A program made the position numbers and the translations under genes. Below, in pieces: positions 3,279-64,000 of a DNA stretch of 64,000 nucleotides. The number at the start of each line of letters is the position of its first letter. Within the stretch, counting starts at the first letter, position 1. The notes beneath the pieces are model-generated. The model saw nothing but the letters and a program-made list of their open reading frames with translations, had not been told where the DNA came from and did no database searches. The DNA is from Siniperca chuatsi (taxonomy: Eukaryota; Chordata; Actinopteri; Centrarchiformes; Sinipercidae): contig NC_058046.1 in NCBI RefSeq assembly GCF_020085105.1, positions 25,362,675-25,426,674 on the forward strand, written 5' to 3'.

Positions 3279-3672
3279 TGAAGCAGCGCCAAACTGCAGG
3301 GACATCAGAACAGAAACAATAAATCCATAACAGGCCAGAAGAGTATGAAACATGCAATACTTCTGTAGAACACTCTTTTCCCTACAAGTCCTACTTTCTC
3401 TCTCAGTTTAATCTAATTCTTATTTTAAATGCTACTGTATAAACTAATTTTCATGTTAAATGACAACTAAAGATTTCTTTTTGCATTATAAGTACTTTAA
3501 ACTGAGACCAATTCAGATTTTCTTTCTAAATCATACTAAAGTTTTCTCCGTTGGACTGAATCAGATTAATTAAGCACTGTCCATTGCAACCAGGCAACAA
3601 CAAAAAGCCTCTGCCACTCTCTCAACCGCCATGGCCACTGTTACCACGGAGACCCATTCAGATGCCCGGTGG

Positions 3673-3685
3673 TGACCTTTGACCT
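3673..3685. promoter_or_regulatory. Perfect DR1 nuclear-receptor site
   Basis: TGACCTTTGACCT is the exact reverse complement of AGGTCAAAGGTCA, the consensus direct repeat with one-base spacer recognised by COUP-TF, HNF4, PPAR-RXR and RXR-RAR dimers. It sits in a GC-richer, non-repetitive block (about 3600-3780). No promoter is visible beside it, so a distal enhancer is the natural reading if it works at all. Confidence 0.4.
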
Positions 3686-5673
3686 GAGGGGAGGCTGGTG
3701 AATGTAGCTGAAAGGGGCGGCTGGGCCGGGGCATCTGGGGTATCATCTGGCGCCTAACAAAGCCCCTCGCCAGCTGGGGAGGAGGGCAGGAGATAGAGAG
3801 AGAGGGAGCTGGAGGAAGGGGCACAGAGGAGAGGGGAGTGGAGAGAAAGAGAGAGCACCCTTTTCTTCTTGCCCTCTTCAGAGAGAGTGGCCATTGACAC
3901 TGTGCATCTCATTAAAATCTGTGCACCCCGCTCTCCCCTCCCCTCCTCTCTCTGGAGCACAGGGCCCAAGCAGCTGCTTGTCCTGCTCTGGCCATTCAAG
4001 CTCAAGTGCAGTCCACTGCAGGAGAGAGAGAAAAAAGGCAGACAGAGAGTGACGGGGGGTGGGAGGTCTTGGACATATGCCACCACCACTGGGACTGGAG
4101 AGGCTGCACGGAGAAAGACATCGCCCTGCTGTTATATCTTAAAACTTTCTTTTTCTTTCTTTTAAAAAACTTTTTCCAAGTTAGAAATAAAACAAAAATG
4201 GTGCTGATTAGAAAGGCGATGTACAAAGGCGATGAAAAACACCTTTTTTCCATTTTGAATCACCTCTTAGAACACTGCATGCCTAGTGTATGATTTTATA
4301 GCCCGCCTTCCTTCTTGGAAGAAAAAAAAAAAATGTCAGGTGCGGCATGTATCCTGAGTTGGTTATTTTGTTTGTGCATTTTTGAACGATGTAAGTGAGC
4401 TGAAGAGTGATGTGATGTCACCAAGGCGCCAGACTCGGCCTCATCCATGTGTAGATGGACAGCAGGATAAAACATGCAAACAGCTGCCTGGTGGCAACAC
4501 GCGTAATCACAGACAGCAAACAATGACACACTCACCCGTCAACCTCCCAGAGCCCCTCTGGTGTCCCTACACCCCTGAAGGACTTTGTGGATATGCACGG
4601 GGCTCTCTGAGGGTCATGGTCATGCAGTGTGTGTATGTGTGTGTATGTGTGTGTATGTGTGTGTGTGAAGCCAAGAGAGCACAGCAAGACTGCTGTCAAA
4701 ACAGAAAATCTGCCATGGGGTGCAAAAGGTGGGGGATCTGTAATAAGGGAGTGGGGTAAATGACTAATATGAGGGGCAGGGCTTTAACTGCTGGGTGCTA
4801 TGCCAATGAGATGATAATACTGCAGGTACACATTCATTTGCACTCACAAACACACTTAACTAGGCATATTTAAGGAATGAGTACGGAGCTGATAGACAAG
4901 ATGTATCACATGTCTGGAGAAATGAGCCTCAACTCTCCTTCCTCTGTTTTTCACTCTTCACAAGCCAGTTTGGATTCCTAAATTCAAGGGTACAGCAACA
5001 GAGCCCCTTGTCCCCCACCTCTTCTTTCTCTCTCTCTGTCATCTCCGCTGATGAATGGGGCTTTGCGTGTGGATTTTAATTACTGCTCTGTCGTGGTGGG
5101 AATTGGCCATGCATTAAATTGGAATGAGACACATTTTCCCCCTCAGCAGGGGAGGGAGGAGAATGGAGGGTAAAAGGAGAAACTGGTTACTGTATATTAA
5201 TTGAACCATCCAGTGGCACAAAGTTCTCACATAACTGTGCAAGGCTTACAAAAATGGGAGCTTGGAGAGAAGAAGTGCACATTTTTACATGCAGGAAAAC
5301 TACAGAAGAGTTATAGAATTTTACAGAGCGGTTCTGTCCGATTTATATAATGTTTAGAAGTACATAATCTGGCCAATTGATTCCCAAGAGAGACATCCTT
5401 TTTTTCTATCAAAATCAAAGAGAAAAGTTGAGTTGTTTTAGGAGTTCAAGGTCTGGTGGCTTCTTCTCTTTGAATTGTAGGAATGTATTTAGCCGATCTA
5501 CTGTAAGTGGAGGAAGTCATAGAAGCAGTTGGTTGGCAAGGGCATATGCAGTTATGATGAAGGCCTATCTGTGTCATTTACCTCTGATTAAAAAGGACAT
5601 TACATCAGTCAAATTCCATTTTGTAGTCTGCCAGTGCAGCTTAGCAACATCAAAGAAAATTGAGCTTTGAATC

Positions 5674-7413
<1,740 letters not shown>

Positions 7414-9275
7414 GTGGGTAGAGATGTATTCCCGGCCAGGGCCATAGATACCATTGAGGACACGGAGGTCAGCACAGAGACAGCACTTGTGAAAATTACA
7501 GCACTTGTCTCTGTACTTGTCTTGTTAGATCTTAGTGCTGCGTTCGACACCATTGACCATCACATCCTATTACAGAGACTGGAACATGTAATTGGCATTA
7601 AAGGAGCCACACTAAGCTGGTTTAAATCCTAACTATCAGATCGATCTCAGTTTGTACATGTTAACAGTGAGTCCTCTGTACACGCCAAAGTTAGTCACGG
7701 AGTTCCACAAGGTTCTGTGCTTGGACCAATTCTATCCACCTTAAATATGCTTCCTCTAGGCAATATTATTAGGAAACACTCCATAAACTTTCATTGCTAT
7801 GCAGATGATACCCAATTATATCTATTGATTAAGCCAGATGAAACAAACCAGTTCACTAAACTTCAAGCATGCCTTAAGGACATAAAGACCTGGATGACCT
7901 GCAACTGTCTGATGTTAAACTCTGACAAAACTGAAGTTATTGTACTTGGTCCCAAACACCTCAGAAACACATTATCTAAAGATATAGTTACTCTAGATGG
8001 CATTGTCCTGGTCTCCAGCAGCACTGTAAGGAACCTCGGAGTTATCTTTGATCAGGATTTATCCTTTAACTCCCGCATGAAACAAACTTCAAGGACTGCC
8101 TTTTTTCACCTACGTAACATTGCAAAAATAAGGCACCTCCTGTCTCAAAATTATGCAGAAAAATGAGTGCATGCATTTGTTACTTCTAGGCTGGGCTACT
8201 GCAATTCCTTATTATCCAGCTATCCGAATAAGTCCCTTAAGACTCTCCAGTTGATCCAGAATGCTGCGGCGACAAGAACTAGGAAAAGAGATCATATTTC
8301 CTCAATATTAGTGTCTCTGCACTGGCTCCCTGTAAAATCCAGAATAGAATTTAAAATCATTCTCCTCACCTACAAAGCTCTTAATGGTCTGGCACCATCA
8401 TATCTTAAAGATCTCATAATACCATATTATCCAACTAGAACACTTCCAGGATGCAGGGTTACTTGTGGTTCCTAGAGTCTCCAAAAGTAGAATGGGAGCC
8501 AGAGCCTTCAGTTATCAAGCTCCTCTCCTGTGGAATCAGGTCCCAGTTTGGGTTTGGGAGACAGACACCATCTCCACATTAAGAGTAGGCTTAAGACTTT
8601 CCTCTTTGATAAAGCTTATAGTTAGGGCTGGCTTGGGTGAGTCCTGAACCATCCCTTAGTTATGCTGCCATAGGCCTAGACCGCCGAGAGACTTCCCATG
8701 ATGTGCCTCTTTCCTATGCATTATTATGCACATCTTCTCTCTCCTGTAGTTTTGTTCTTTCTTGTTTCTCTCCTCTCTCCTTCTGTCACTTTCAGGAGGT
8801 ATTTCTGCCTCCGGAGCTGCAGAGACTGGATCTGTGGTTGTGGGCCACCTGCTGTCCCCGTGTTCCTGCTCTACAACTGCTACTACAGTTGTTGTTATTG
8901 GCTCTGTTACTAATACTGACATTATTTTTCCTATAGCTGTCATTCCTATTATTACTAATTTATTAATACTAACCCTACAATTACTATTCTACTATTTAAA
9001 AAAAAATAAATAAATTTTACGTCGTCTTTGCATTGTGCCTCCCCCTGACCCCGAACCACCCCCAGCCTACCCCCACCCACCCCCACCCCAAAACACGGCA
9101 GCGGCGGATGACCGCTCACCTTTGAAGCTGGTTCTGTCCAAGGTTTCTGCCTCTTAAAGGAAGATTTTCCTTGCCACTGTCGCCAAATGCTTGCTCATGG
9201 TGGGATTTGTTGGGTCTGTGTAATTAATATTATAATATTATAATAATTAATATCCTTGGTGCGTTGTGGGGAACG
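7414..9275 (+). mobile_element. Decayed L2/CR1-type LINE (reverse transcriptase and 3' UTR)
   Basis: A 5'-truncated non-LTR retrotransposon. The reverse transcriptase is readable in one frame from about 7500. It shows the motif [16 protein letters not shown], then HGVPQGSVLGPIL (about 7696-7734), then the catalytic CYADDTQLYL (about 7796-7825), followed by the conserved C-terminal region with [13 protein letters not shown]. It is dead: in-frame stops interrupt it at 7630-7632 and 8164-8166, and a frameshift near 8450 moves the end, including the [14 protein letters not shown] stretch, into another frame that closes at about 8647. The downstream segment at about 9110-9215 matches the well-known fish L2-type 3' UTR (a stretch around AAGGTTTCTGCCTCTTAAAG). 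The 5' limit is approximate. Family assignment to L2 rather than Rex1 rests on memory of the motifs. Confidence 0.88.
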
Positions 9276-42604: not shown

Positions 42605-44367
42605 CTAAGAGGGTGAGGTGTGCATTCTCAGGTGACTGATGAGGTTGCGCTGCTGGGTAAACTTCCCTCCGCATAGCTGACATTCATACGGCTTCTCCCC
42701 AGAGTGGACACGCATGTGCTCTGTCAGACGGTACTGGCGTGTGAAGCGCATGCCACACTCTTCACATGCAAACGGCTTTAGACCAAGGTGGCTGCGCATG
42801 TGGCGTGTCATGGTGCCCCTCTGGGTGAACATTTTGCCACAGATGTTGCATGGGAAAGGCCTGGTCAGCCAATGGCTCTTTTCATGTTGTCTCAGCGTTG
42901 CCGGGTCTTTGTAGCTCTTACTGCAGACTGTACACTTGAATGGACGCGTTTCAGAGCCAAAGCTGGAAGGACCCACAGGGGCAGAGAGGTCCTCTGCCTC
43001 CTCCTCATCTTCCTCTTTCACAAAGGTCCCTCCCTCCTCTTTGATGTAGAGCTCATCCTCAGTGTGTGTCTCCACATGAGCATTGAGCTGCTCAGAACTG
43101 GGAAAGCCCTTACCACAGGGAATGCACACATATAGGTTGTCTCCAAAAGCTGGCTCAAAACCTTCCTGCCGGTACACGTAGTTGGCGCTTTGGTGTCCGC
43201 CTCCTGTTCCTCGCCCACCTCCTGCACTCTCTCCGTCACTTTGCCCACTCTCATCACTATGGTCCTGGCCATTCTCTCCTCCTTCTTCCTCATCTTTACA
43301 CTGGAAGGACTGGTCAGAGGCGAAGCTGCTACCACTGCCCCCTCCAACTACAGAGGAGCGGCCATCTTTAGGACCCATAATCACCCCATTAACCAGGGGC
43401 TTGTCATGATCTTCAGACTTCAACCCTGACGCCTCTCTCTTAGGCCATTCATTCTTGCGAGCACCCTGCCGGGATTTCTTCTGAGGTGGGGGCCATCAGG
43501 CTGGTTTTGGGTTTCCTCTGAGGCTTTAGAGGAGGAGTTGAGCTCCATGGTCTCTGAGCCACAGGTGTCTACACCTGGTAGGGTGGTAGAGGAGTCATCC
43601 AGTGAGGCACTGTTGGTTGTGGATACTGAGGCAGATTGAGGGGATTCTTGGGAGTTGCTGTGTGGGCTGAGGGCATCAGTGGCTGTGCCTGCAGAGGGAG
43701 GGCTTTTCTTGGACAGGTCTAGTCCAAGGTCTGGCTCCCCAGCACTTCCTCCACTGCTAAGATTCCCGTTACTGCTGCCATTCCCTCCATTCCCATTCCT
43801 CCCCGAGCTGCCGACAAACATTTCGTCATCTGAGAGCTTGTCCCGAATTCCTTCATCTGGCTGTGGCTGGTCGGCATCGGAAGGGGTCGGAGGATAGTGG
43901 TTGTTGGGGCCAGCAGGGGTAGAAGAGGAAAGGCGCTGGTTGTTGAGGCGTAAGCGGCTAAGGGGACCTGGTGTGGAAGGTTTACCTGGCAGGGGTTTCC
44001 CACCACTGCGCTTGAGCTTCTTTCTGCACAGAGCAGCAAGGTCATGGAGCTGGAGGTAGCTGGCTGCGGTTAAGAGGGCACTGAAGTTCTGCTCACTGCT
44101 CTGGTCCGACGAGGACAGGAGCTTCCCAGTGTAAATGAAGTCCAGAACTTGTCTGAATACAGAGGGGTTAACCATCTCTGTGTCAAGGTTAATGAGGTTA
44201 TCGTGGAGGACCAAAGACTTGAAGTAGATGCTGCTTGCCGCCAGGATGTTCTTGTGGGCACGGAAGAGCGCATTCTCCACCACGATGATAACATCACACA
44301 GGAATCCCTTGGCTCTCTGCTGGTTGAGTTGCAGCAGCAGTTGTTTGGCATGATTTGGCAGTTCCAT
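42605..44367 (-). CDS. hic2: HIC2-type BTB/POZ zinc-finger repressor, frameshifted in this sequence
   Basis: This nuclear sequence-specific repressor of the HIC family is recognised from its near-invariant BTB start and its C-terminus, which ends HLRMHTSPS as in HIC2 and unlike HIC1. The start is the ATG at 44365-44367 (MELPNHAKQLLLQLNQQ); an in-frame GTG two codons upstream is not used. The BTB/POZ domain covers residues 15-120. The CtBP-binding motif GLDLSKK lies at residues 214-220. Lysines in YIKEE and FVKEE fit sumoylation sites. Five C2H2 fingers run from about residue 413 to 583, the first separated from the other four. Corrected length is about 587 residues; human HIC2 has 615. The frame breaks at the five-C run 43488-43492: upstream sequence runs into a stop at 43420-43422, while the conserved frame (KNEWPKREAS) resumes one base out of phase. 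A sequencing or assembly indel is the likeliest cause. Confidence 0.93.
43488..43492 (-). other. hic2: Frameshift site in hic2
   Basis: The minus strand has CCCCC here. The frame upstream ends 21 codons later without family-like sequence, whereas the zinc-finger frame is open from just after this run. That frame is closed immediately upstream by a TGA (about 43495-43497), so the shift must fall between that TGA and about 43480. One extra C would join the two frames. Confidence 0.85.
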
Positions 44368-44387
44368 TTCCACCTTTCTTCTTTCCT

Positions 44388-44411
44388 TCTCTCTCTCTCT
44401 CTCTCTCTCTT
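44388..44411. repeat. (TC)n tract in the hic2 5' UTR
   Basis: A GA run on the coding strand lies between the predicted exon-2 acceptor and the start codon. Confidence 0.9.
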
Positions 44412-44433
44412 CCTACACGAGCACCACCTGAAG

Positions 44434-51291: not shown

Positions 51292-51650
51292 CATCTCTGT
51301 TCTGTGTCCATGCTGTATTGTATTTTGTGGCTCAGTTGCTGCATCCAAAGTGGATGGAAGAAATTAAATAAAGACTGAAATGAACACTGAGACTTTCACC
51401 GAGGCTACCAGCAATACTGGCTAGCAATTGGCACCCACACATGGTGTATCCAACTGCGTACCCTCACCACAAGTGAAGTAATCAACCACTTCTCTAACAA
51501 GTGAACATATGATTAGTATGATAAAGTGACCTCTGTCTTGAGAGAATGAACTTTGTTGATGAGATAACCCCCCCCCCACCTGGAGCCTAATGCTGTGTCT
51601 AAGGACAGAGGGCATGTTGGTCCAAGGTTTTACAGAGAGCTGCCACCCCC

Positions 51651-54960: not shown

Positions 54961-57292
54961 CCCATATTGCTGAATACAGGTCTACGCTGCAAAAAAAAAA
55001 AAAAAAAAAAACGTTGACAAGTTGTTTTGTGTAAGGTCATGAAGATTTAAACAAACAAAATATTTTATGAGATGGTGTGGGGAAACACGCAAGTTTCGAG
55101 TGCAGTTTCACCTAAATGCTATAAAAACAAGTGCCGGTAAGCCATGGACTGAAAGAAAGTGGGAACATCCTTTTCATTAGAAAAAGGTTTTAATCAAGGT
55201 TTGTATCGCAAGCTAACTAAATGATCTTCACTTCACCAGGTTTACATTGCAGATTAATTAACGTGAGGTTTTTTTTGCAGTGTACATTATATCTCTCTGC
55301 AAGATAAAGGGTATAAAGAGTATCTCTGCAATGTATTTAATACGCCTATTGCAATCACCTTAGACAACTGCATCAACCCTGTTTATTCTGAAATCAGTTT
55401 ATTAGTTGGACTTAAGATAATAATTGCAATTTGAGAATTTCAAATTTGTCCTCAAAGCAATAACAGATCTCTAGATGATTGATGGCCAGATTATTTAGAG
55501 TTATCAGCAGAAAAGTAGAGAGAGAGAGAGAGAGAGAGATTCAGAAATTGGGCACCAGATGTGCGGAAGTGTGGCGATGTGTTGGCTCCTCCTCTTTGCA
55601 CAGATGGTCTCACCTATGCCATTTATTGGACCTCTATCAACGAGATTGCTTCGATGCTACCACCCGGCTGCAGCTAAAAATGGATATTCTTGCCCATCGC
55701 ATGCAATGTGCTGAAGAGACAGAGATGAATCTACATATTGTATCAGTTTATTCTCCCATGCTTTATGTTTATGGTTCACATTCCGTGGATAGCGAAGTTA
55801 TGGCGCTGTGCCAAAGTGCTCTTCTGACACTCTGTGGTTGCCGCGGAAACTGCATCCTCTGCGGGGAAGCTCGGCACACTGAGTTGCATAATCAAGGTGC
55901 ATGTGTTTTTGTATTATTAGCTCGCCTTAGCTGAGGATCCTTCACGAAAAACGACAATGGCTATAAGGCAAACACGGCGATAAACCTCATGAAGGATATA
56001 ACGTAAATCAAATTCCTAATAGCCTATATGTCTTTAATTGGAATTTATACAATAATTCAGTGAATCCAGCCGATCAGTCCGGATAGATAATTCCCCCTTT
56101 TGCCAAGTTTCAGTGACAAACGCTTAACATTTACTACAGCAAAAATCTTTTTAATTTAGGTGTCATGAAAACTGCCAAACAGTCTCTGGAAAGATGCTGG
56201 AGGCTTATCAGAACTAGTACTGATAGAGGCGGCGGCACACTTTGTCCTTTGCATACTTCACATGTAATTGTTTCCAATAAGGAACCTTATAGATGTTGAC
56301 AGTTAAAAGAGAAAACAATATGCCTGTCGGTAATTACAAAAAGTTGGCACAGTTTCAGTTATTGAATTTAATTTTTATTTACGGAGATACGTAGTATACA
56401 AAATACAACCAAATTCAAACACGCCCCAGGATCAGTGTCCATGTGTAATTTCCATCAGTTCTTTGTGGAACAACTTTTCTCATGGCAAGACATTCAGACT
56501 AAACACTTAGCCGAGATCTGAAATTCGTTCATTGCGATTTGAGAACAACAATGGAAATAATAAGGTAAAACAGAGTAGATGTGCTGAGTACATTATGAAA
56601 CATTTCCATCTTCCAAGAAACCCAAAGCCTAAACTTGTTCTCGTTTGACAGCAAGCGTGCTTTCCAATGAAACTTCCTCATCAAGTATTTGATTAGCTTG
56701 GTTAGAAAACAACGTTTACTTTGACATCCATCCAACTTTTAAATTAGGCTGCGGGGACTGGGTGCTTATAGGGCCAAGTCGTCCAGGATGTCGCCTTATG
56801 AAGGGAAGCAGAGAAGGGGAAAAAGACATTTGAATCAATTTCAAGATCCAATTACTTATTGCCAAACCAACTCAACATTTGCCTCAGGGCAGATAAAAAG
56901 ACAGAAAGATAAAGAATTTCAAGCAAGATCCAACAAAAAAGAACAGGTAAAACATATAAAATCATAAAGTGCAAAACACATATTCCTACAGTGTAACCGT
57001 GCACAGTGAGCTACAATATATTCATGTCAACAAGTCGTGAAAAGTGGCAGAGGGGCATTCAGAATATTGTCATAAATACATGATATTGAGGGCCTATAAG
57101 TGTTGTTTTGTGATCAAACAAAAATAAACAAATACATTTCCGTTTTCTGCAGCATCTATAGTGATTCGGGGCTCGGGTGTGATCAAATTACTGCGTAAAA
57201 CCTTTGAAAACTGAATTTAACTATCATGAAAGGCATCTTAGGATAACACTGAGTTAACGACGTGTCGACTCGTCGAACACATCATCACCTTC
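54961..57292. other. Intergenic stretch between hic2 promoter candidate and receptor A
   Basis: It starts with a 21-base A run at 54991-55011. An open plus-strand frame at 55479-55934 (151 codons) has no domain I recognise, starts in low-complexity Arg-Glu repeats and is probably not a gene. The minus-strand side at 56790-56890 contains two polypyrimidine-AG acceptors that could serve a second exon of the receptor gene to its right. Confidence 0.5.
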
Positions 57293-58159
57293 TTACGTCC
57301 TCCTGCAGCGGGGTCTCCACACTTGGCTCAGCAGAGCCGCTCTGAGCGCAGTGCACCCTCTGATGTACAGGATGGGGGTCAGGGCAGCATTAACTCGGGG
57401 CAAAATGCGAAGAGGGTCAGTGCCTTCATTTTTAAATGTATAACAGGTTGAACCAATGAAATTGCAGGCAATAATGTGACAGAATATAGGAAGCCACGTC
57501 GCTAAGAAAAACACAGCCACCACCAATATGAGATACACCGATGAGCGCTTGCTGTCTCTCTCCTCAGAGGGAGGCTCCCTCTCCAGCTGGAACCTGGCTA
57601 TGAGGAACAGTCTAATATTCAGCCCTATCATTATAATCACTGTGAATATGTTCCCCACAAACGTACCAATGCTCGTGATCTTTTTGGCTACCCCGATTGT
57701 GACCAGGTTGTGCACAGCCACGATCAAGAAAGCATAGACCCAGTAGGCAAAGATGACCAGCAGGGTCCTGTTTAGGGTCATGCGCTGGGAGTATTTAAAG
57801 GGTGACACCACCGCGTGGTACCTGTCTGCCTGCGCGGCCAGGATGGCCATGTAAGACAGCCCTAGAAATGTGGGTACGATGTAAAAGGTTCTCGTAGGGG
57901 AGTCGAAGCTATCCCTCACATCGAGAACACCAACATAATAATATGACACGCCGGTGCAGATGTCACTGAGGCAGGTGCTCAGCATGTACATGAAGCGGTT
58001 CTCGCTGCGCAGCGCCTTGTTTAGCAGTATGGAGAGAAACACAGACACGTTGAGGAAAATGATGGTCGCAGCCAAGAAAATGCTGAAAAGAAGCATCAAC
58101 ACATTGCCAAAGCTCGTGGGGAGCACCACAAGAGACAAACCCTGGCTTCTGTTACTCAT
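57293..58159 (-). CDS. Orphan class A GPCR-like receptor A
   Basis: A seven-helix receptor of 288 residues, presumably at the plasma membrane; ligand unknown. It has N-glycosylation site NRS at 3-5. TM1 has Asn37, TM2 LSTCLSDICTG has Asp66 at the sodium-site position, and TM3 ends in DRY (112-114). The TM6 motif is TWLP (221-224) in place of CWxP, and the TM7 motif is TPILY (261-265) in place of N/DPxxY. No cysteine is seen at the top of TM3, so the usual TM3-ECL2 disulphide is absent, as in the melanocortin/lipid/cannabinoid/adenosine receptor group. It is a clear paralogue of the plus-strand receptor 2.7 kb away, divergently oriented. The codons before the stop read AGG ACG TAA G, in which GTAAGA is a good splice donor; the true C-terminus may therefore lie in a second exon (acceptor candidates before 56882 and 56794). 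I do not recognise a named orthologue. Confidence 0.85.
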   Translation of the reverse strand: MSNRSQGLSLVVLPTSFGNVLMLLFSIFLAATIIFLNVSVFLSILLNKALRSENRFMYMLSTCLSDICTGVSYYYVGVLDVRDSFDSPTRTFYIVPTFLGLSYMAILAAQADRYHAVVSPFKYSQRMTLNRTLLVIFAYWVYAFLIVAVHNLVTIGVAKKITSIGTFVGNIFTVIIMIGLNIRLFLIARFQLEREPPSEERDSKRSSVYLILVVAVFFLATWLPIFCHIIACNFIGSTCYTFKNEGTDPLRILPRVNAALTPILYIRGCTALRAALLSQVWRPRCRRT

Positions 58160-58711
58160 CGGTGCGGAGAAAACGTGTGCAACAGAGTGTTCAGGCTTCG
58201 TCGCACAGCAAAGACTGACAGCAATGCAGCTGCGTGACTGTACAGCTGAGGCGGAGCGGGCTTACCTCTGCTCTGATTTATGTAGGAAGCACTGTCAAGC
58301 TTACAGGAAGACTTAGACCTGGGTGACTTTAATTCCCATGGACAACAAGTCAACAAGCTCCTGACAAAAACATACAGAGGCCAACAACTTGTACAAATAA
58401 CTGCAGTGACAGGCCTAAAAATGAAAGTACAATCTGACTAAATTCATATTTTATCATTATCTCAGGGCATAAGTAGGTTTATCAATTTAAATTTTACATT
58501 AACACCACATCATAGTTCTGTCTTCAGTACTTTTCATATAAAATTGAGTTGAAGAACATATTAGTCACTAAACTGATGATACAACAACAACAAATAACCC
58601 TTTCTCTATCTCTTATTGTTTCTAAATGTATAGCACCTGAAGCAGTTCAGCATATTTGACGAAGTTGATGTACTAATTTTTGGGTGGTATCCGCATGGTG
58701 TGCACTTATTG

Positions 58712-58752
58712 TAAGTCTCTTTGGATAAAACCATCAGCTAAATAAATGTAAT
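58712..58752 (+). mobile_element. LINE/SINE 3' tail fragment
   Basis: TGTAAGTCTCTTTGGATAAA, then ACCATCAGCTAAATAAATG, closely resembles a 3' tail shared by many fish LINEs and SINEs. Sequence to its left is too degenerate to assign. Confidence 0.6.
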
Positions 58753-59507
58753 ATAGTTTTGCAGGTTCTTCTGCAGTCTCCCTCTGGGTCTGAGGAAAGC
58801 AGCATCAAGAAAGGCATTTTAGCATGAGCAACAAACCAATTGTTTTAGCTTTGCTTGACCTAGAATCTGTTATTACAACTCAAATACAATTTTATTATAA
58901 ATCACCTTTGGCAATTTTAACAATCTTTCTGTTGGCAGAGTCTATTGCTGCATAAGCCAAAACGTTTTACTTCTGTTTAAGTTGTCTGCCCTCTCTTTCT
59001 AATTGTTAAATTATCTAATTCTTATAATGACATGGTTTTCTTTGAATGTAAATCACTTTATGAAAGCACTTCAGCTGAATGAAAGCTGTTTAGTATTATT
59101 AGCAGACATCAGCCTCTGAAACTGCATGCTTGTTTAAATGTTAAGACAAAAAAAAAGGTAATAACCTGCTAAAATCTTTAAACTATTTTGTGCAGCGGTT
59201 TCCAACATTTGTTGCTTTAGGGCCACAAAAGAACAATACTGAACCCTCAGATTTAATAGGAGGAGGCTCCCTTACTGTTTGTGTAACAGTCACATAAACC
59301 CTCTCTAACGGGGCTAATTATTAATCTATAAAAAGGGTCAATTAGTCTACTGGGGCTTTTTTTTAAAACATAACCTTTTTTAATTAGTCATCACCGCTGA
59401 TGAAGACCACTCATGATTCATAGTGTCTGGAAGAAGAAGAAGCTGCCAACAGCATGTGTCAACTGTTCAAAGTGTCTGTGTCTGGGGCAAGAAAAGGATT
59501 TTGTCAA

Positions 59508-59508
<1 letters not shown>

Positions 59509-59555
<47 letters not shown>
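59509..59555. repeat. (TG)n microsatellite
   Basis: A pure TG run of about 46 bases lies between the two divergent receptor genes. Long TG tracts can adopt Z-form DNA, but no role is implied. Confidence 0.97.
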
Positions 59556-59559
<4 letters not shown>

Positions 59560-60740
59560 TAATGCATCTATACCACAGCTTTATTCTCACCTCTTTCAAC
59601 TGGTTTTTATTTCAAGCATATGTTTATAATTGACAGTCCTTAAAGAGAAAATCCTGAGTGGACCAAAAACATTTCTACATGAAGATGTCCACTGTGAGGG
59701 CCAATTAATGAGCGGATCAAACTTTCGGATTTACTGCACATATTGAATTGAACTGAAAAAAAAAACCTTTACAGGCATGTATGGGACAAGAATTGAACAT
59801 GTTTGGTGCAAGATTAGTGATAGTGGAGAGAAGCATTTTGACCTTAAAGTGAAAAAAAATGCGTAGTGCTCCATCTAGTGTTTGAAAAACGCATTGACTT
59901 CAGTCAGGTATTGTAGGGTGAAAGTTCTTATAGATCAAATGATTCAATAACTTTTAAGAGGACAGACATGATCAATATCTTAAAGTAATAACGCAACAAA
60001 AACCAGCTAATGATTGTACAATCCAATGACAGTTTAATGAAGAGGCTTTCAAGTCATCAATGCTTTGTTTGGAAACTTTTTGCAAAATATGCCTGGATTA
60101 AAAGAAAATACAGTGTCTGTTATGGCATGTGTTTACAATATGTTGTTATAATACGATCTGTGTGTGTTGGTTCGTTTTTATGATTGAAACCAGCACTTCA
60201 TGCCCGTGCAGGGTAATTTGGATGGAATATGTAGACACTATGGCTATAATCGCTGTCTACATTTGATAACAACAGAAAACAGGACTAGAGAGGACAAAAC
60301 AGACATTTGTGAGCATTCTACTCATCCTCCATTACAACTGTGTCGTAAAAAAGGAAAGCCTAAAAGGACTTAGACAGTCCGGCAGACTCAAGATTTAGAA
60401 GCTAGTTACGTTTCTGCTCTGCTCTGAAGAGGAGGCAGAAGTGGAGGAAGGGAAGGCACTGAACAAAAGTGATAAAAACGTGATTCAAGTATTCCTGGGT
60501 CATCCTGAACCATGGAGACATCAGACTTCAGGGTGAAAGGAATTTTTAGGACGCGGGCCTCACCAAACCACTAAGAAGGTGTTATGGAAACCACAGGACG
60601 CAAAAACAAGTGACTGGTAATCATCTTGTTTCAACCATTACCGAACACCCCTGGGACTTGTAGTGATTAGGCCTCATTTTTATTCTTTCCATATGCGGCT
60701 GTCCTGCCTGTTAACATGACACTTGTTTATGCTAAAGCCT

Positions 60741-60752
60741 CTGCCCTCTAGA
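60741..60752 (-). promoter_or_regulatory. CTCF-like motif upstream of receptor B
   Basis: The minus strand reads CTCTAGAGGGCAG, which contains the CTAGAGGGCA core of CTCF sites. It lies about 90 bases upstream of the receptor B start codon. This is a motif match only. Confidence 0.25.
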
Positions 60753-60841
60753 GATCAGGAGGGTTGCTTAAACTCTGAGAAGTCGTACCTTTAACACATC
60801 TTTAAATATCATGCTTGCGCGTCTTCTAGCGGAGCGTCAGG

Positions 60842-61708
60842 ATGCTCCTCAACGCCACCGTCCCTCTGTCGGTGGACTTCGACACTCCGGAGGACTTCCT
60901 CATCTTCATCTTCCATATCATGTTCGGCACAAGCGCCGTGCTCGTCGCCGGCTCGGTGGTCATCGCGATATCCGCCACCCGGTCTCTGCGAGGCCAGAAC
61001 CGGTTTATATTCATGCTGAACACGAGCATCAGTGACACTCTGACCGGCTTCTCGGTCTACTACCTCGGCCTCTTCGACGTCCAAGAGGGCTACCCCTCTA
61101 GGAATGGGACATACTACATTTTACCCTCATTTCTAGGTGTCAATGTGTTAACCTTCCTCTTCGCTCAGTTTGACCGGTACTTCGCCGTGTGCCATCCATT
61201 CTTTTACAACCGCTGCATAACAAGGTCTTTTGTCATTGGGATTTGCGCGTTTTGCTGGATTTACACATACTCTATCCTCACGGTGCAGAACATGGTGCCT
61301 ATTTCAAAGGCGGCTCAGATAAACGCGTTTGGTGTGATGACTCTACAGATTATAGTTCTAACTAAAGTGTTGATGACAATTAAATTATACATCATAGCCA
61401 GGCATCACCTGGGGAGAGAGGCGCCCAGTGCTGAGAGGGACAACAAGACGGAGTCGCTGCGCATCATTGTGTTTGTGGTGATTTGCTTCTTGGCTCTGTG
61501 GTGTCCATCCTTTGTCAATATAATTGTCAGACAGTTGACTAGGGAAGGTCTGAGGTTTCGGAATGAAGCTACTAACCTGTTCGCCACCATGGCACGTCTG
61601 AACGCACTGGTCACCCCGGCTGTGTACATCTGGGGCAGCCCGGCGCTGCGGGGTGCCGTGTGGAGCACGGTGTGGCGGAGGCTCTGCTCCAGGCGGAGGG
61701 CAAGGTAA
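60842..61708 (+). CDS. Orphan class A GPCR-like receptor B
   Basis: A 288-residue seven-helix receptor, paralogous to receptor A and the same length. It has N-glycosylation sites NAT (4-6) and NGT (88-90, before TM3). TM2 carries TSISDTLTG (Asp64-65 region), TM3 ends in DRY (111-113), TM6 has LWCP (219-222) and TM7 has TPAVY (259-263). The Asn expected in TM1 is replaced by Ala/Gly, and there is no cysteine at the TM3 start. The ECL3-TM7 segment is basic and the C-tail is Arg-rich (CSRRRAR). The ATG at 60842 is chosen because it fits the paralogue's length; an out-of-frame ATG precedes it at 60811. The final codons read GCA AGG TAA CT: CAAG|GTAACT is a plausible splice donor, and a strong acceptor at 61907-61908 leads into 13 further open codons. 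Ligand and orthology are unknown to me. Confidence 0.87.
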   Translation: MLLNATVPLSVDFDTPEDFLIFIFHIMFGTSAVLVAGSVVIAISATRSLRGQNRFIFMLNTSISDTLTGFSVYYLGLFDVQEGYPSRNGTYYILPSFLGVNVLTFLFAQFDRYFAVCHPFFYNRCITRSFVIGICAFCWIYTYSILTVQNMVPISKAAQINAFGVMTLQIIVLTKVLMTIKLYIIARHHLGREAPSAERDNKTESLRIIVFVVICFLALWCPSFVNIIVRQLTREGLRFRNEATNLFATMARLNALVTPAVYIWGSPALRGAVWSTVWRRLCSRRRAR

Positions 61709-61908
61709 CTGGTCGGTCTGAACACTCGGGCGTTCTTTAAAATGTCACTATTCAGGTGTTTTCCTCGCGTTACGGAAGCCTACTGTTTTAATGGGCTGGG
61801 TTTTAAGTCAAATTAGTAGGCAATTAGCTTTTTTTGTCCAATTGTGTGTGTGAATAAGAACTATTATGTAAGATCATTGCTGTAACTCTCTCTCTCTCTC
61901 TCTTTCAG
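61705..61908 (+). other. Putative alternative 3' intron of receptor B
   Basis: The donor CAAG|GTAACT ends at 61704 and the acceptor (TC)n-TTTCAG at 61907-61908 has an excellent polypyrimidine tract. Removal of these 204 bases eliminates the TAA at 61706-61708 and continues the frame with RIGFNFDGVTNKL before a TAA at 61946-61948. Receptor A has a donor at the same codon position and phase. Confidence 0.5.
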
Positions 61909-61948
61909 AATTGGCTTTAACTTTGATGGAGTGACCAACAAATTATAA
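61909..61948 (+). CDS. Putative last coding exon of receptor B
   Basis: It completes the split Arg codon and adds IGFNFDGVTNKL, then TAA. A polyadenylation hexamer follows 80 bases later at 62029. The exon would replace only the last residue of the unspliced product and extend the C-tail by 12 residues. It is supported by the splice signals and the parallel in receptor A, not by transcripts. Confidence 0.45.
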
Positions 61949-61983
61949 CAGCATCGCTTGCTAACGATGTAAGCATACAGTAT

Positions 61984-62040
61984 ATGAAAAGTGCAATGAG
62001 ATAACTTCTGTCATGAATCGGCGCTGTGAATAAAAACTAA
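61984..62040 (+). mobile_element. LINE 3' tail fragment providing AATAAA
   Basis: TGAAAAGTGCAATGAGATAA, CTTCTGTCATGAATCGGCGC and TGTGAATAAAAAC match, with few changes, the 3' terminal block of fish L2-type LINEs, which ends in a GGCGCTATATAAATAAA-like sequence. Nothing else of the LINE is visible next to it. Confidence 0.65.
62029..62034 (+). terminator. Polyadenylation signal of receptor B
   Basis: AATAAA lies 320 bases after the unspliced stop and 80 bases after the spliced stop. It is the first AATAAA downstream of the gene. Confidence 0.5.
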
Positions 62041-62828
62041 ATATTGTTTTTCACATGAAACACACCTGTCATACTTGTCATAAACAGGTTATATTTATAG
62101 GTTATATATTTAACACAATAATTAAATATTGGGTAATCCTTTTTTGTAATCGCCTCTATTGCTTATCTTGAACTTAGATGTGTTTTTATTTTCTGGAAAA
62201 TTCATCTTCATCCAGGTGCTAACACTGCATGTTACAGGAGTTACAGGAGCCTGCTATTTCCCTGTATTTAACGTCCTGCTATGCCATCTTACTTTTCTTT
62301 GAAGCTGGTATTTAAAGTTTGGATGCCATTTTAATTATACAACTTTTTGCAATAACAGTTGTGAAGTTTACCATACAATAGTAGGCCTGACAGAAATGAA
62401 TCTCACCGTTCATTACCAGTTCAATCGCACAGTAATGACAGGATTGGGGATAATGAGAGGATTAAGTAAATTAAGTCCTTCCCTTCAGGGGCAGGTTCTC
62501 GGGTTAATGCGGCTGTAAATGGTACTGGTCTAAAATAATATGTCCAGCAGTGATAAAGACTAGATCTGAAAGCATACTGCTTCCCTGTTCAGCTCAAGTG
62601 GATTATTTGTTCTACAGGAGTGTCACGACCGCCGCCCTGATCCCGGGGCCGCCGGGGATCCGGGGCAGTCCAGGATACTCGCCCGCGTCGATAAACTTAC
62701 CAGCAGCATTCCCGCAGTGAAACCTTACCTGGAGGGGCGGAAATGGCCGGTAAATTGTTACGTTTTGTTGGTGTAATAACAGACTCTAATAACAGAAAAC
62801 AAACATAAACTGGTTTGGACGCTTCTGA
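62041..62828. other. Intergenic stretch
   Basis: No gene is recognised. A short GC-rich, CpG-rich block at about 62627-62695 stands out from AT-rich surroundings. One frame of it has weak similarity to the receptor TM7 region, but this is not convincing. Confidence 0.5.
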
Positions 62829-62890
62829 TGGTTCAGTTTGACCGGTGTTTTGCCGTGAGTCATTCTTTCTTTTATGGTCGACGCGTATAG
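62829..62890 (+). pseudogene. Remnant of a third receptor paralogue
   Basis: Translation of 62831-62887 gives VQFDRCFAVSHSFFYGRRV, followed at once by a stop. The same region of receptor B reads AQFDRYFAVCHPFFYNRCI, covering the end of TM3, the DRY motif and the second intracellular loop. The DNA match is also clear (CAGTTTGACCGGT is identical). The Tyr of DRY has become Cys and no neighbouring domain is recognisable, so this is a small relic, about 1.1 kb downstream of receptor B in the same orientation. Confidence 0.8.
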
Positions 62891-63734
62891 CTGGGTGCAT
62901 GTTTACGGTCAGCTGCAAGCGATCCAACAGGCTGGCTGGACTAATTCCTTTAAGGGGAAACTAATACTTTATCTGGATTGTGGAGTGTTTGAACTTGACA
63001 GAGCTCGTTTCAATCGTTAATAAATTACACCGAAATTCAGACTGAACGGCAGCAATAAAGGGCTTTCCAACGGCAGATGGCTCAGGTTTCGGGGCCCTGA
63101 TATTGTGTATGATGGCTCGTGGCATGGATTTTGCTCCGATACAATTTCTGTTCGTGCGACTGAAGCATTATTAAACGAATGGTTTGGTTGCGGTATAAAT
63201 GTTGTACTTCCTTTGCTCAAAAAAACCGTTGCCTGTGCACAGACAGTAATCCAGCCAGCAAATCAGCCTGTTAAATCAGCTCAACTCTGTAAAGGCTTTA
63301 TCATTTTAGACATGATCTTTTCCTTTAAATTTAAGGTTATGACAACATACATTCTCAAAGCTAAAATAATTTTTATTCTAGCGCAATGGTACAGAATTTG
63401 TTTTGACTTTCTTGATTTTAAGGGCACTTCTATAAGTTGAAAGTCTATTGTTGAAATAGCCAATTTTGCTTAAATCAAACTGGCTATCTCAACAAATGAT
63501 CAAACAAATAATGTCATCCAGGTTTAAATATAATCGTCTAAGCTTCACACACTGTACTTGCGGTTTTCCCAGGAATAAATAATAATAAGAAAATCCATAA
63601 TACTCAGCATGCTACCTCACCTATTGGAGCTTGGTTTTCATATTTTGTGGCAAATATGCAGCTGGATTATTCCTCTGTAGTCTTTCTAAATGTCCACGCG
63701 AGTGTATTGAATTCATTCATCAGTCTAGTCTAAA
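62891..63734. other. Intergenic stretch
   Basis: No gene or recognisable repeat is seen. The small frames on both strands lack homology. Confidence 0.5.
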
Positions 63735-63800
63735 GACTTTTACTAAGGCAGTTTCTGTGCTATACGCACTTTGGAAGCCTGACTGATAATACAAAGGACA
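63735..63800 (-). mobile_element. LINE reverse transcriptase fragment
   Basis: On the minus strand the sequence reads SGFQSAYSTETALV, the N-terminal RT block seen in the minus-strand LINE at about 15950-16010 ([15 protein letters not shown]). The DNA block GGCAGTTTCTGTGCTAT is shared by both. The flanks are degenerate; the element may extend to the window end. Confidence 0.65.
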
Positions 63801-64000
63801 ACATCAGCAATGTGGTTCACAAACTCCTTTAAAAAAGTGTGAATGGGATTCAGACATAGAGGACTTAATTCTGCTATTATTGTAACAACATCTGATTTTC
63901 TTAATGTGCTAAAACATAAATAGCTGTAGGAGTGGAGTTGTTGTGGAGAGGCTGGATATATAGGTATTATGCTGGATCCACAAGAAACACATAATTGAAT

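Follow-up and report, generated by a model that had tools for sequence, protein, structure and literature searches.

The stretch analysed here, called the window throughout, comprises 64,000 nucleotides of Siniperca chuatsi DNA (contig NC_058046.1, forward-strand positions 25,362,675 to 25,426,674). It contains two receptor genes, A and B, arranged head to head. Receptor A is encoded by the minus strand, with its start codon at 58159, and receptor B by the plus strand, with its start codon at 60842. The Pfam domain 7tm_1 scored 63.9 bits in receptor A (E 2.2e-17) and 60.2 bits in receptor B (E 2.8e-16); the curated cut-off is 30.5. By the 7tm_1 criterion, both are class A (rhodopsin-like) G protein-coupled receptor (GPCR) genes. 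Their products are ~38% identical. We consider how these genes end, since each open reading frame (ORF) stops inside a candidate splice donor. The features are as follows, with a slash marking the predicted exon boundary.

57293-58159, minus strand: receptor A ORF, unspliced; 288 codons, ending AGG AC/G TAA G
57297-58159, minus strand: receptor A main coding exon, from ATG to the first 2 bases of codon 288; seven helices and helix 8
57293-57295, minus strand: TAA closing the unspliced A frame; donor bases +2 to +4
56795-57296, minus strand: predicted receptor A intron, phase 2; 502 bases, GTAAGA...ATAAG, 36.5% G+C; 8 in-frame stops if retained
56716-56794, minus strand: predicted receptor A last exon; completes Thr288, then RHPGRLGPISTQSPQPNLKVGWMSK and a stop
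56374-56379, minus strand: AATAAA downstream of the A last exon
60842-61708, plus strand: receptor B ORF, unspliced; 288 codons, ending GCA AG/G TAA CT
60842-61704, plus strand: receptor B main coding exon, from ATG to the first 2 bases of codon 288
61706-61708, plus strand: TAA closing the unspliced B frame; donor bases +2 to +4
61705-61908, plus strand: predicted receptor B intron, phase 2; 204 bases, GTAACT...TTTCAG, 39.7% G+C; 4 in-frame stops if retained
61909-61948, plus strand: predicted receptor B last exon; completes Arg288, then IGFNFDGVTNKL and a stop
62029-62034, plus strand: AATAAA downstream of the B last exon

In both genes the unspliced frame closes on a TAA contained in a GTAA donor, as an earlier, sequence-only reading of this DNA had claimed. 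For receptor A that reading gave position 57298; the donor stands, but the last exonic base is 57297 and the donor G is 57296. For receptor B it proposed an acceptor 204 bases on, and a pure-pyrimidine tract does run into TTTCAG ending at 61908, with AATAAA at 62029. The B tail is also present, but its supposed 13 codons resolve into the split Arg codon and 12 codons. A tail exon was found for receptor A as well (56794-56716). Thus, a putative phase-2 intron near the C-terminus, as proposed, can be recognised in both genes. Joining 57297 to 56794 would give a receptor A of 313 residues, with the C-terminus HPGRLGPISTQSPQPNLKVGWMSK (also cited as RRTRHPGRLGPISTQSPQPNLKVGWMSK). Joining 61704 to 61909 would give a receptor B of 300 residues, with the C-terminus RARIGFNFDGVTNKL. 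After the predicted joining, both tails are in frame, open and terminated by a stop codon; beyond the split codon they extend for 25 (A) and 12 (B) residues. Compared with the main exons (50.5 and 52.7% G+C), the introns (36.5 and 39.7%) are AT-rich.

The decisive evidence is the recovery of these last exons, not the coincidence of two donor-like stops. The A last exon was first recognised from tails of the form H.GRL.P in relatives from Micropterus, Semicossyphus, Labrus, Scatophagus and Halichoeres. We fetched 304 proteins, of which 132 were nearest to A, 133 to B and 39 to a third paralogue, C; among them, P0122 is 100% identical to the window's receptor A. Annotated tails from other fishes match the predicted exons in frame. 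For this comparison, 146 tails of at least 14 residues were cut from the fetched proteins and searched against all 64 kb of the window. There were 59 matches at E ≤0.05, and 28 for reversed tails. Five A-type tails matched the A exon in frame (P0123, P0159, P0191, P0198 and P0225; 56716-56800), with a best E of 2.9e-12 and a top identity of 81% over 26 residues. The B exon was matched in frame by three B-type tails (P0010, P0019 and P0028; 61880-61950; best E 4.5e-4). Across the whole window, none of the 146 tails matched the other gene's exon, and no reversed tail fell on either last exon (0 and 0). Some tails, cut too early and holding part of helix 7, matched the main exons and were not counted. 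The Micropterus A protein aligned with the window in two segments in collinear order, of which the second lies at 56796-56719 (81% identity, E 6.6e-9).

The longer models were also compared with the window tails by shuffling; the models listed were the best 120 of 264 for A and the best 120 of 431 for B. Among the 40 longer A models, five had a tail that beat 500 of 500 shuffles, as did 13 among the 51 longer B models; the five A tails are the same five that match the A exon. Two further A tails (at ≤3/500 shuffles) and three further B tails (at ≤6/500) also matched.

The remaining tail matches fell on a repeat at 3661-3797, on a glycine-coding run near 51650 and on some weak sites. The segment at 3661-3797 (minus strand) shares 86-100% identity with the C-terminus of the Merluccius receptor A model P0234, and is perhaps a dispersed repeat absorbed into that gene model.

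When GTRAG interrupts a codon after its second base, the letters read nnG TRA, and TRA, being TAA or TGA, is always a stop. A stop of the form G/TAA at a donor is phase 2 by construction. Hence the shared phase, which the sequence-only reading took as independent evidence, follows from the way the stop is made and carries no evidential weight. If the donor is AG/GTRAG, the final overrun codon is AGG (Arg). The ends of the short models bear out such overrun: Arg is terminal in 67 of 80 for A and 62 of 68 for B (129 of 148 in total). The 288-residue form may be a mere ORF overrun of the donor, and the short models in the databases may be ORF predictions. For Yarrowia lipolytica, phase-2 GTGAGT and GTAAGT donors are described, in the passages cited, as giving an in-frame stop if retained, whatever the intron length (PMC2911113). 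The likeness to receptors A and B is that a phase-2 donor supplies the stop. The passages in question concern a yeast genome survey, not receptors, and the consequence discussed in them is nonsense-mediated decay (PMC2911113).

To place the splice signals in context, GT and AG were counted on both window strands, with donors scored against a consensus matrix. On this scale, the B donor (AAG/GTAACT) is equalled or exceeded by 128 of 7463 GT, and the A donor (GAC/GTAAGA) by 394 of 7463. The B acceptor has 16/16 pyrimidines before CAG. It is equalled, in pyrimidine share, a pyrimidine at −3 and the lack of a close AG, by 5 of 8648 AG, its own counted. The A acceptor has 14/16 pyrimidines (the last scanned letter being A), then AAG. 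Its pyrimidine share is reached by 49 of 8648 AG under the same rules, which A itself fails because of the A at −3. The splice signals of A are weaker than those of B, whose acceptor is strong. Both introns have the marks of U2-type introns (GT..AG ends, a fair donor, a pyrimidine tract and no AG just before the acceptor), A with reservations at donor −1 (C) and acceptor −3 (A). The candidate branch point for A is TTGAT, with its A at −41. Among 312 stop-to-stop ORFs of at least 60 residues in the window, the donor score of A is equalled or exceeded at the end of 12 and that of B at the end of 5 (same matrix; A and B included). Either donor-like stop alone is unremarkable, and the joint chance is about 6e-4 under independence. 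The sequence-only reading had called coincidence unlikely; the two stops do carry some weight of this kind, but the phase that they share adds none.

Structure models of low or modest confidence were used solely to place helix 8. The last predicted helix spans residues 270-289 in the Micropterus A model (mean predicted local distance difference test score, pLDDT, of 57; low confidence) and 267-281 in the Limanda B model (mean pLDDT 70). From residue 288 onward, pLDDT is <50 in both. In these models, the predicted junction at residue 288 sits at or just after helix 8. GPCRs with spliced C-tails (SST2 and CCR2 type) are marked by an exon boundary at helix 8 or beyond it, with a separate tail exon following, and the same arrangement is predicted here. 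Placing a phase-2 intron at the end of helix 8 or directly behind it is well supported by the sequences compared. The predicted B tail has one Thr and no Ser, and that of A has five Ser/Thr including the split Thr. A classic arrestin phosphocode thus seems unlikely, above all in B. With so few Ser/Thr, the arrestin switch that had been envisaged for these tails is weakly founded.

Taken together, the donors, the acceptors, the tails open in the right frame and the conservation of peptide across species, all of which are directly observed, point to one gene structure. Very probably, each gene has a single exon for the helices and helix 8, and a short tail exon behind a phase-2 intron, joined by splicing. 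Normal splicing would join the main exon to the last exon and yield the proteins of 313 (A) and 300 (B) residues. The unspliced frame would halt at the donor only because phase-2 GTRAG spells TRA. We infer that the junctions are used in RNA, with splicing as the principal outcome; on this account the longer form would arise by plain splicing, perhaps with some retention. A stop codon in the last exon is not expected to provoke nonsense-mediated decay. A retained message, with no further intron downstream, should escape it, and retention might leave a 288-residue tailless receptor, a step that is conjecture.

Several observations weigh against the two-exon structure. The B last exon is only 30% G+C, so AT-rich like the introns. 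Both the C at −1 of the A donor and the A at −3 of the A acceptor are unfavourable, and no yUnAy was found as a B branch point in the stretch scanned. Short, tailless models number 80 in the A list (best 120 of 264) and 68 in the B list (best 120 of 431) (P0185 and P0208 for A and P0051 for B are counted as short despite the length rule; the truncated B model P0114 is left out). Among the longer models, 33 of 40 for A (3/500 level) and 35 of 51 for B (6/500 level) have no clear tail match. In addition, fish gene models may be predicted partly from one another.

The predominance of short models would fit an absence of any intron, the receptors truly ending at residue 288 and the downstream matches being chance or relics. 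We consider this highly improbable: orthologue tails match the predicted exons in frame, reversed ones never do, and 129 of 148 short models end in Arg, as expected from donor overrun. Intronic polyadenylation is not favoured as the origin of the short form, since neither intron, scanned throughout, holds AATAAA or ATTAAA. That same lack would let a retained message reach the shared downstream signal, and is one reason to weigh regulated intron retention, in which the 288-residue receptor is made on purpose beside the tailed form and their ratio alters trafficking or desensitisation. Such regulation appears unlikely. The retained forms would indeed be open through helix 8 and the splice signals of A are mediocre, but the introns are AT-rich, B's acceptor is strong, Ser/Thr are sparse in the tails and ordinary splicing suffices for what was seen. 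Precedents are reported in SST2A/SST2B (PMC6148080), CCR2A/CCR2B (PMC9102224) and the pejerrey genes kissr2 and kissr3 (PMC6200147); conversely, a stop at the boundary requires no selection where phase-2 GTRAG creates it, as in the Yarrowia passages (PMC2911113).

The precedents differ from receptors A and B in what the two forms contain. For SST2A/SST2B, the C-tail is reported to be altered by splicing or not near the C-terminus, with both forms reported in rodents (PMC6148080). Receptors A and B are alike in that splicing near the C-terminus would decide the tail of a class A receptor. However, unspliced SST2 has a long functional tail and the spliced form a shorter, poorly conserved one (PMC6148080), whereas the predicted spliced A and B are longer, with a tail conserved in several fishes. 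Furthermore, the unspliced A and B frames end at the donor itself, and both forms of A and B are predictions from sequence. In the CCR2A/CCR2B pair, one form is single-exon and the other is joined to a second exon for its C-tail, which is the likeness to A and B. The Ser/Thr-poor spliced tail of CCR2A is reported to resist arrestin-mediated internalisation. The unspliced CCR2B tail is Ser/Thr-rich (PMC9102224), whereas unspliced A and B would have no tail past the helix 8 region. Pejerrey kissr2 and kissr3 are likewise teleost class A receptor genes in which intron retention leads to an early stop. Their truncated proteins were judged likely non-functional (PMC6200147), whereas retention in A or B would leave all seven helices and helix 8. 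None of the open-access literature matches listed, judged by titles and abstract openings, dealt with the C-terminal intron of these receptors.

The age of the intron was approached through paralogue C. An intact copy in Siniperca chuatsi, P0266, is about 70% identical to B and apparently lies outside the window. Long ends, with tails such as RRVGSCHGKEDTKNSWK, are present in many of the 39 C-like models; P0251, P0276, P0287, P0293 and P0299 stop after KGR, KKR, KRR, NKR and RRR. The C-like set admitted only proteins of about 301 residues or more, so the ratio of short to long ends is not a frequency. In a tree of 39 rows (midpoint root; 12 of 36 inner branches well supported), A and bowfin (Amia) form one set and B and C another, each with 100/100 support. 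In the alignment, the residue split in A lies three columns from the one split in B.

Tails were compared in 17 pairs, with 2000 shuffles each, and 5 pairs were alike. The bowfin A tail resembles those of Prochilodus (4/2000 shuffles as good) and Tachysurus (2/2000), and thus two of the three ostariophysan A tails compared. B-type copies from two Anguilla species are alike (0/2000), as are Anguilla B and Conger B (0/2000) and window B and Salvelinus B (4/2000). The phase-2 intron is probably ancestral to A, B and C, the sequence-only reading having proposed such an origin for A and B; the intron itself was seen in DNA only in this window. This rests on the near-identical split position, the short and long ends in C and the likeness of the bowfin A tail to two ostariophysan ones. 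We infer inheritance rather than repeated gain, and the pattern may be read as one old intron with fast-changing tails.

Evidence on the other side comes from the 12 of 17 pairs with no tail similarity (between 132 and 1951 of 2000 shuffles scored as well). The bowfin A tail is unlike those of Pygocentrus (864/2000), Anguilla A (132/2000) and window A (477/2000). Nor are the tails alike for window B and Siniperca C (1704/2000), or for window A and window B (1377/2000), so homology of the A and B tail peptides was not detected. Common ancestry of the A and B introns hence rests on position and phase. Independent gains at nearly the same site would accommodate these unlike tails, the three-column offset and the ~38% identity of the proteins. 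They are nevertheless improbable, given a shared phase, a nearly identical site at the end of helix 8 in otherwise uninterrupted coding sequence, and both kinds of end in paralogue C. A, B and C might all have kept a stop-making donor for longer than the age of teleosts, with retention versus splicing as a shared switch between helix-8-ended and tailed receptors; we regard this as improbable.

The structure proposed here is an ordinary one, easily overlooked, and seems often to be mis-modelled. Models of this family may often be cut short, the tail being absent in 80 (best 120 of 264, A) and 68 (best 120 of 431, B). Expression constructs and trees would then lack a Ser/Thr-poor tail that can be recognised in several fish orders. 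Annotators should suspect overrun of a phase-2 donor wherever a 'single-exon' ORF ends Arg-TAA or Arg-TGA at AG/GTRAG.

Some A models read on past the boundary. Those of Perca (P0129), Anarhichas (P0147), Sebastes (P0149) and Notothenia (P0151) do so through KRVM or ERVM, similar to what the beginning of the window's A intron reads in a different frame (KKVMM). An indel may have shifted the donor out of phase, or the donor may have been lost. Read-on through KRVM, ERVM, KRVV or KRVI is seen in perch-order and other models (P0129, P0147, P0149, P0151, P0161, P0175 and P0216). The models Labeo P0121 (493 residues) and Boleophthalmus P0241 (572 residues) each look like two fused receptor copies and are perhaps annotation errors.

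Source names for the relatives of A and B are inconsistent. Comparison with solved structures, for receptor B only, gave many matches, the best being 5-HT2A (1.6e-8); these were weak and mixed, and no family name was taken from them. The locus numbers of A and B relatives are close together in Pampus, Channa and Lucifuga, which suggests that the pair stays neighbouring in other fish. About 1.1 kb downstream of B, at 62813-62917 (plus strand), is a relic of a further B/C-type receptor, a third-helix stretch VWTLLMVQFDRCFAVSHSFFYGR followed by a stop or frame change. A search of 56000-64000 with Rfam found nothing reaching gathering scores. Elsewhere in the window, a BTB/POZ domain, with C2H2 zinc fingers in the next ORF, lies at 42605-44412 (minus strand) and probably belongs to a ZBTB-type gene. 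A reverse transcriptase fragment (RVT_1) is present at 7633-8163 (plus strand).

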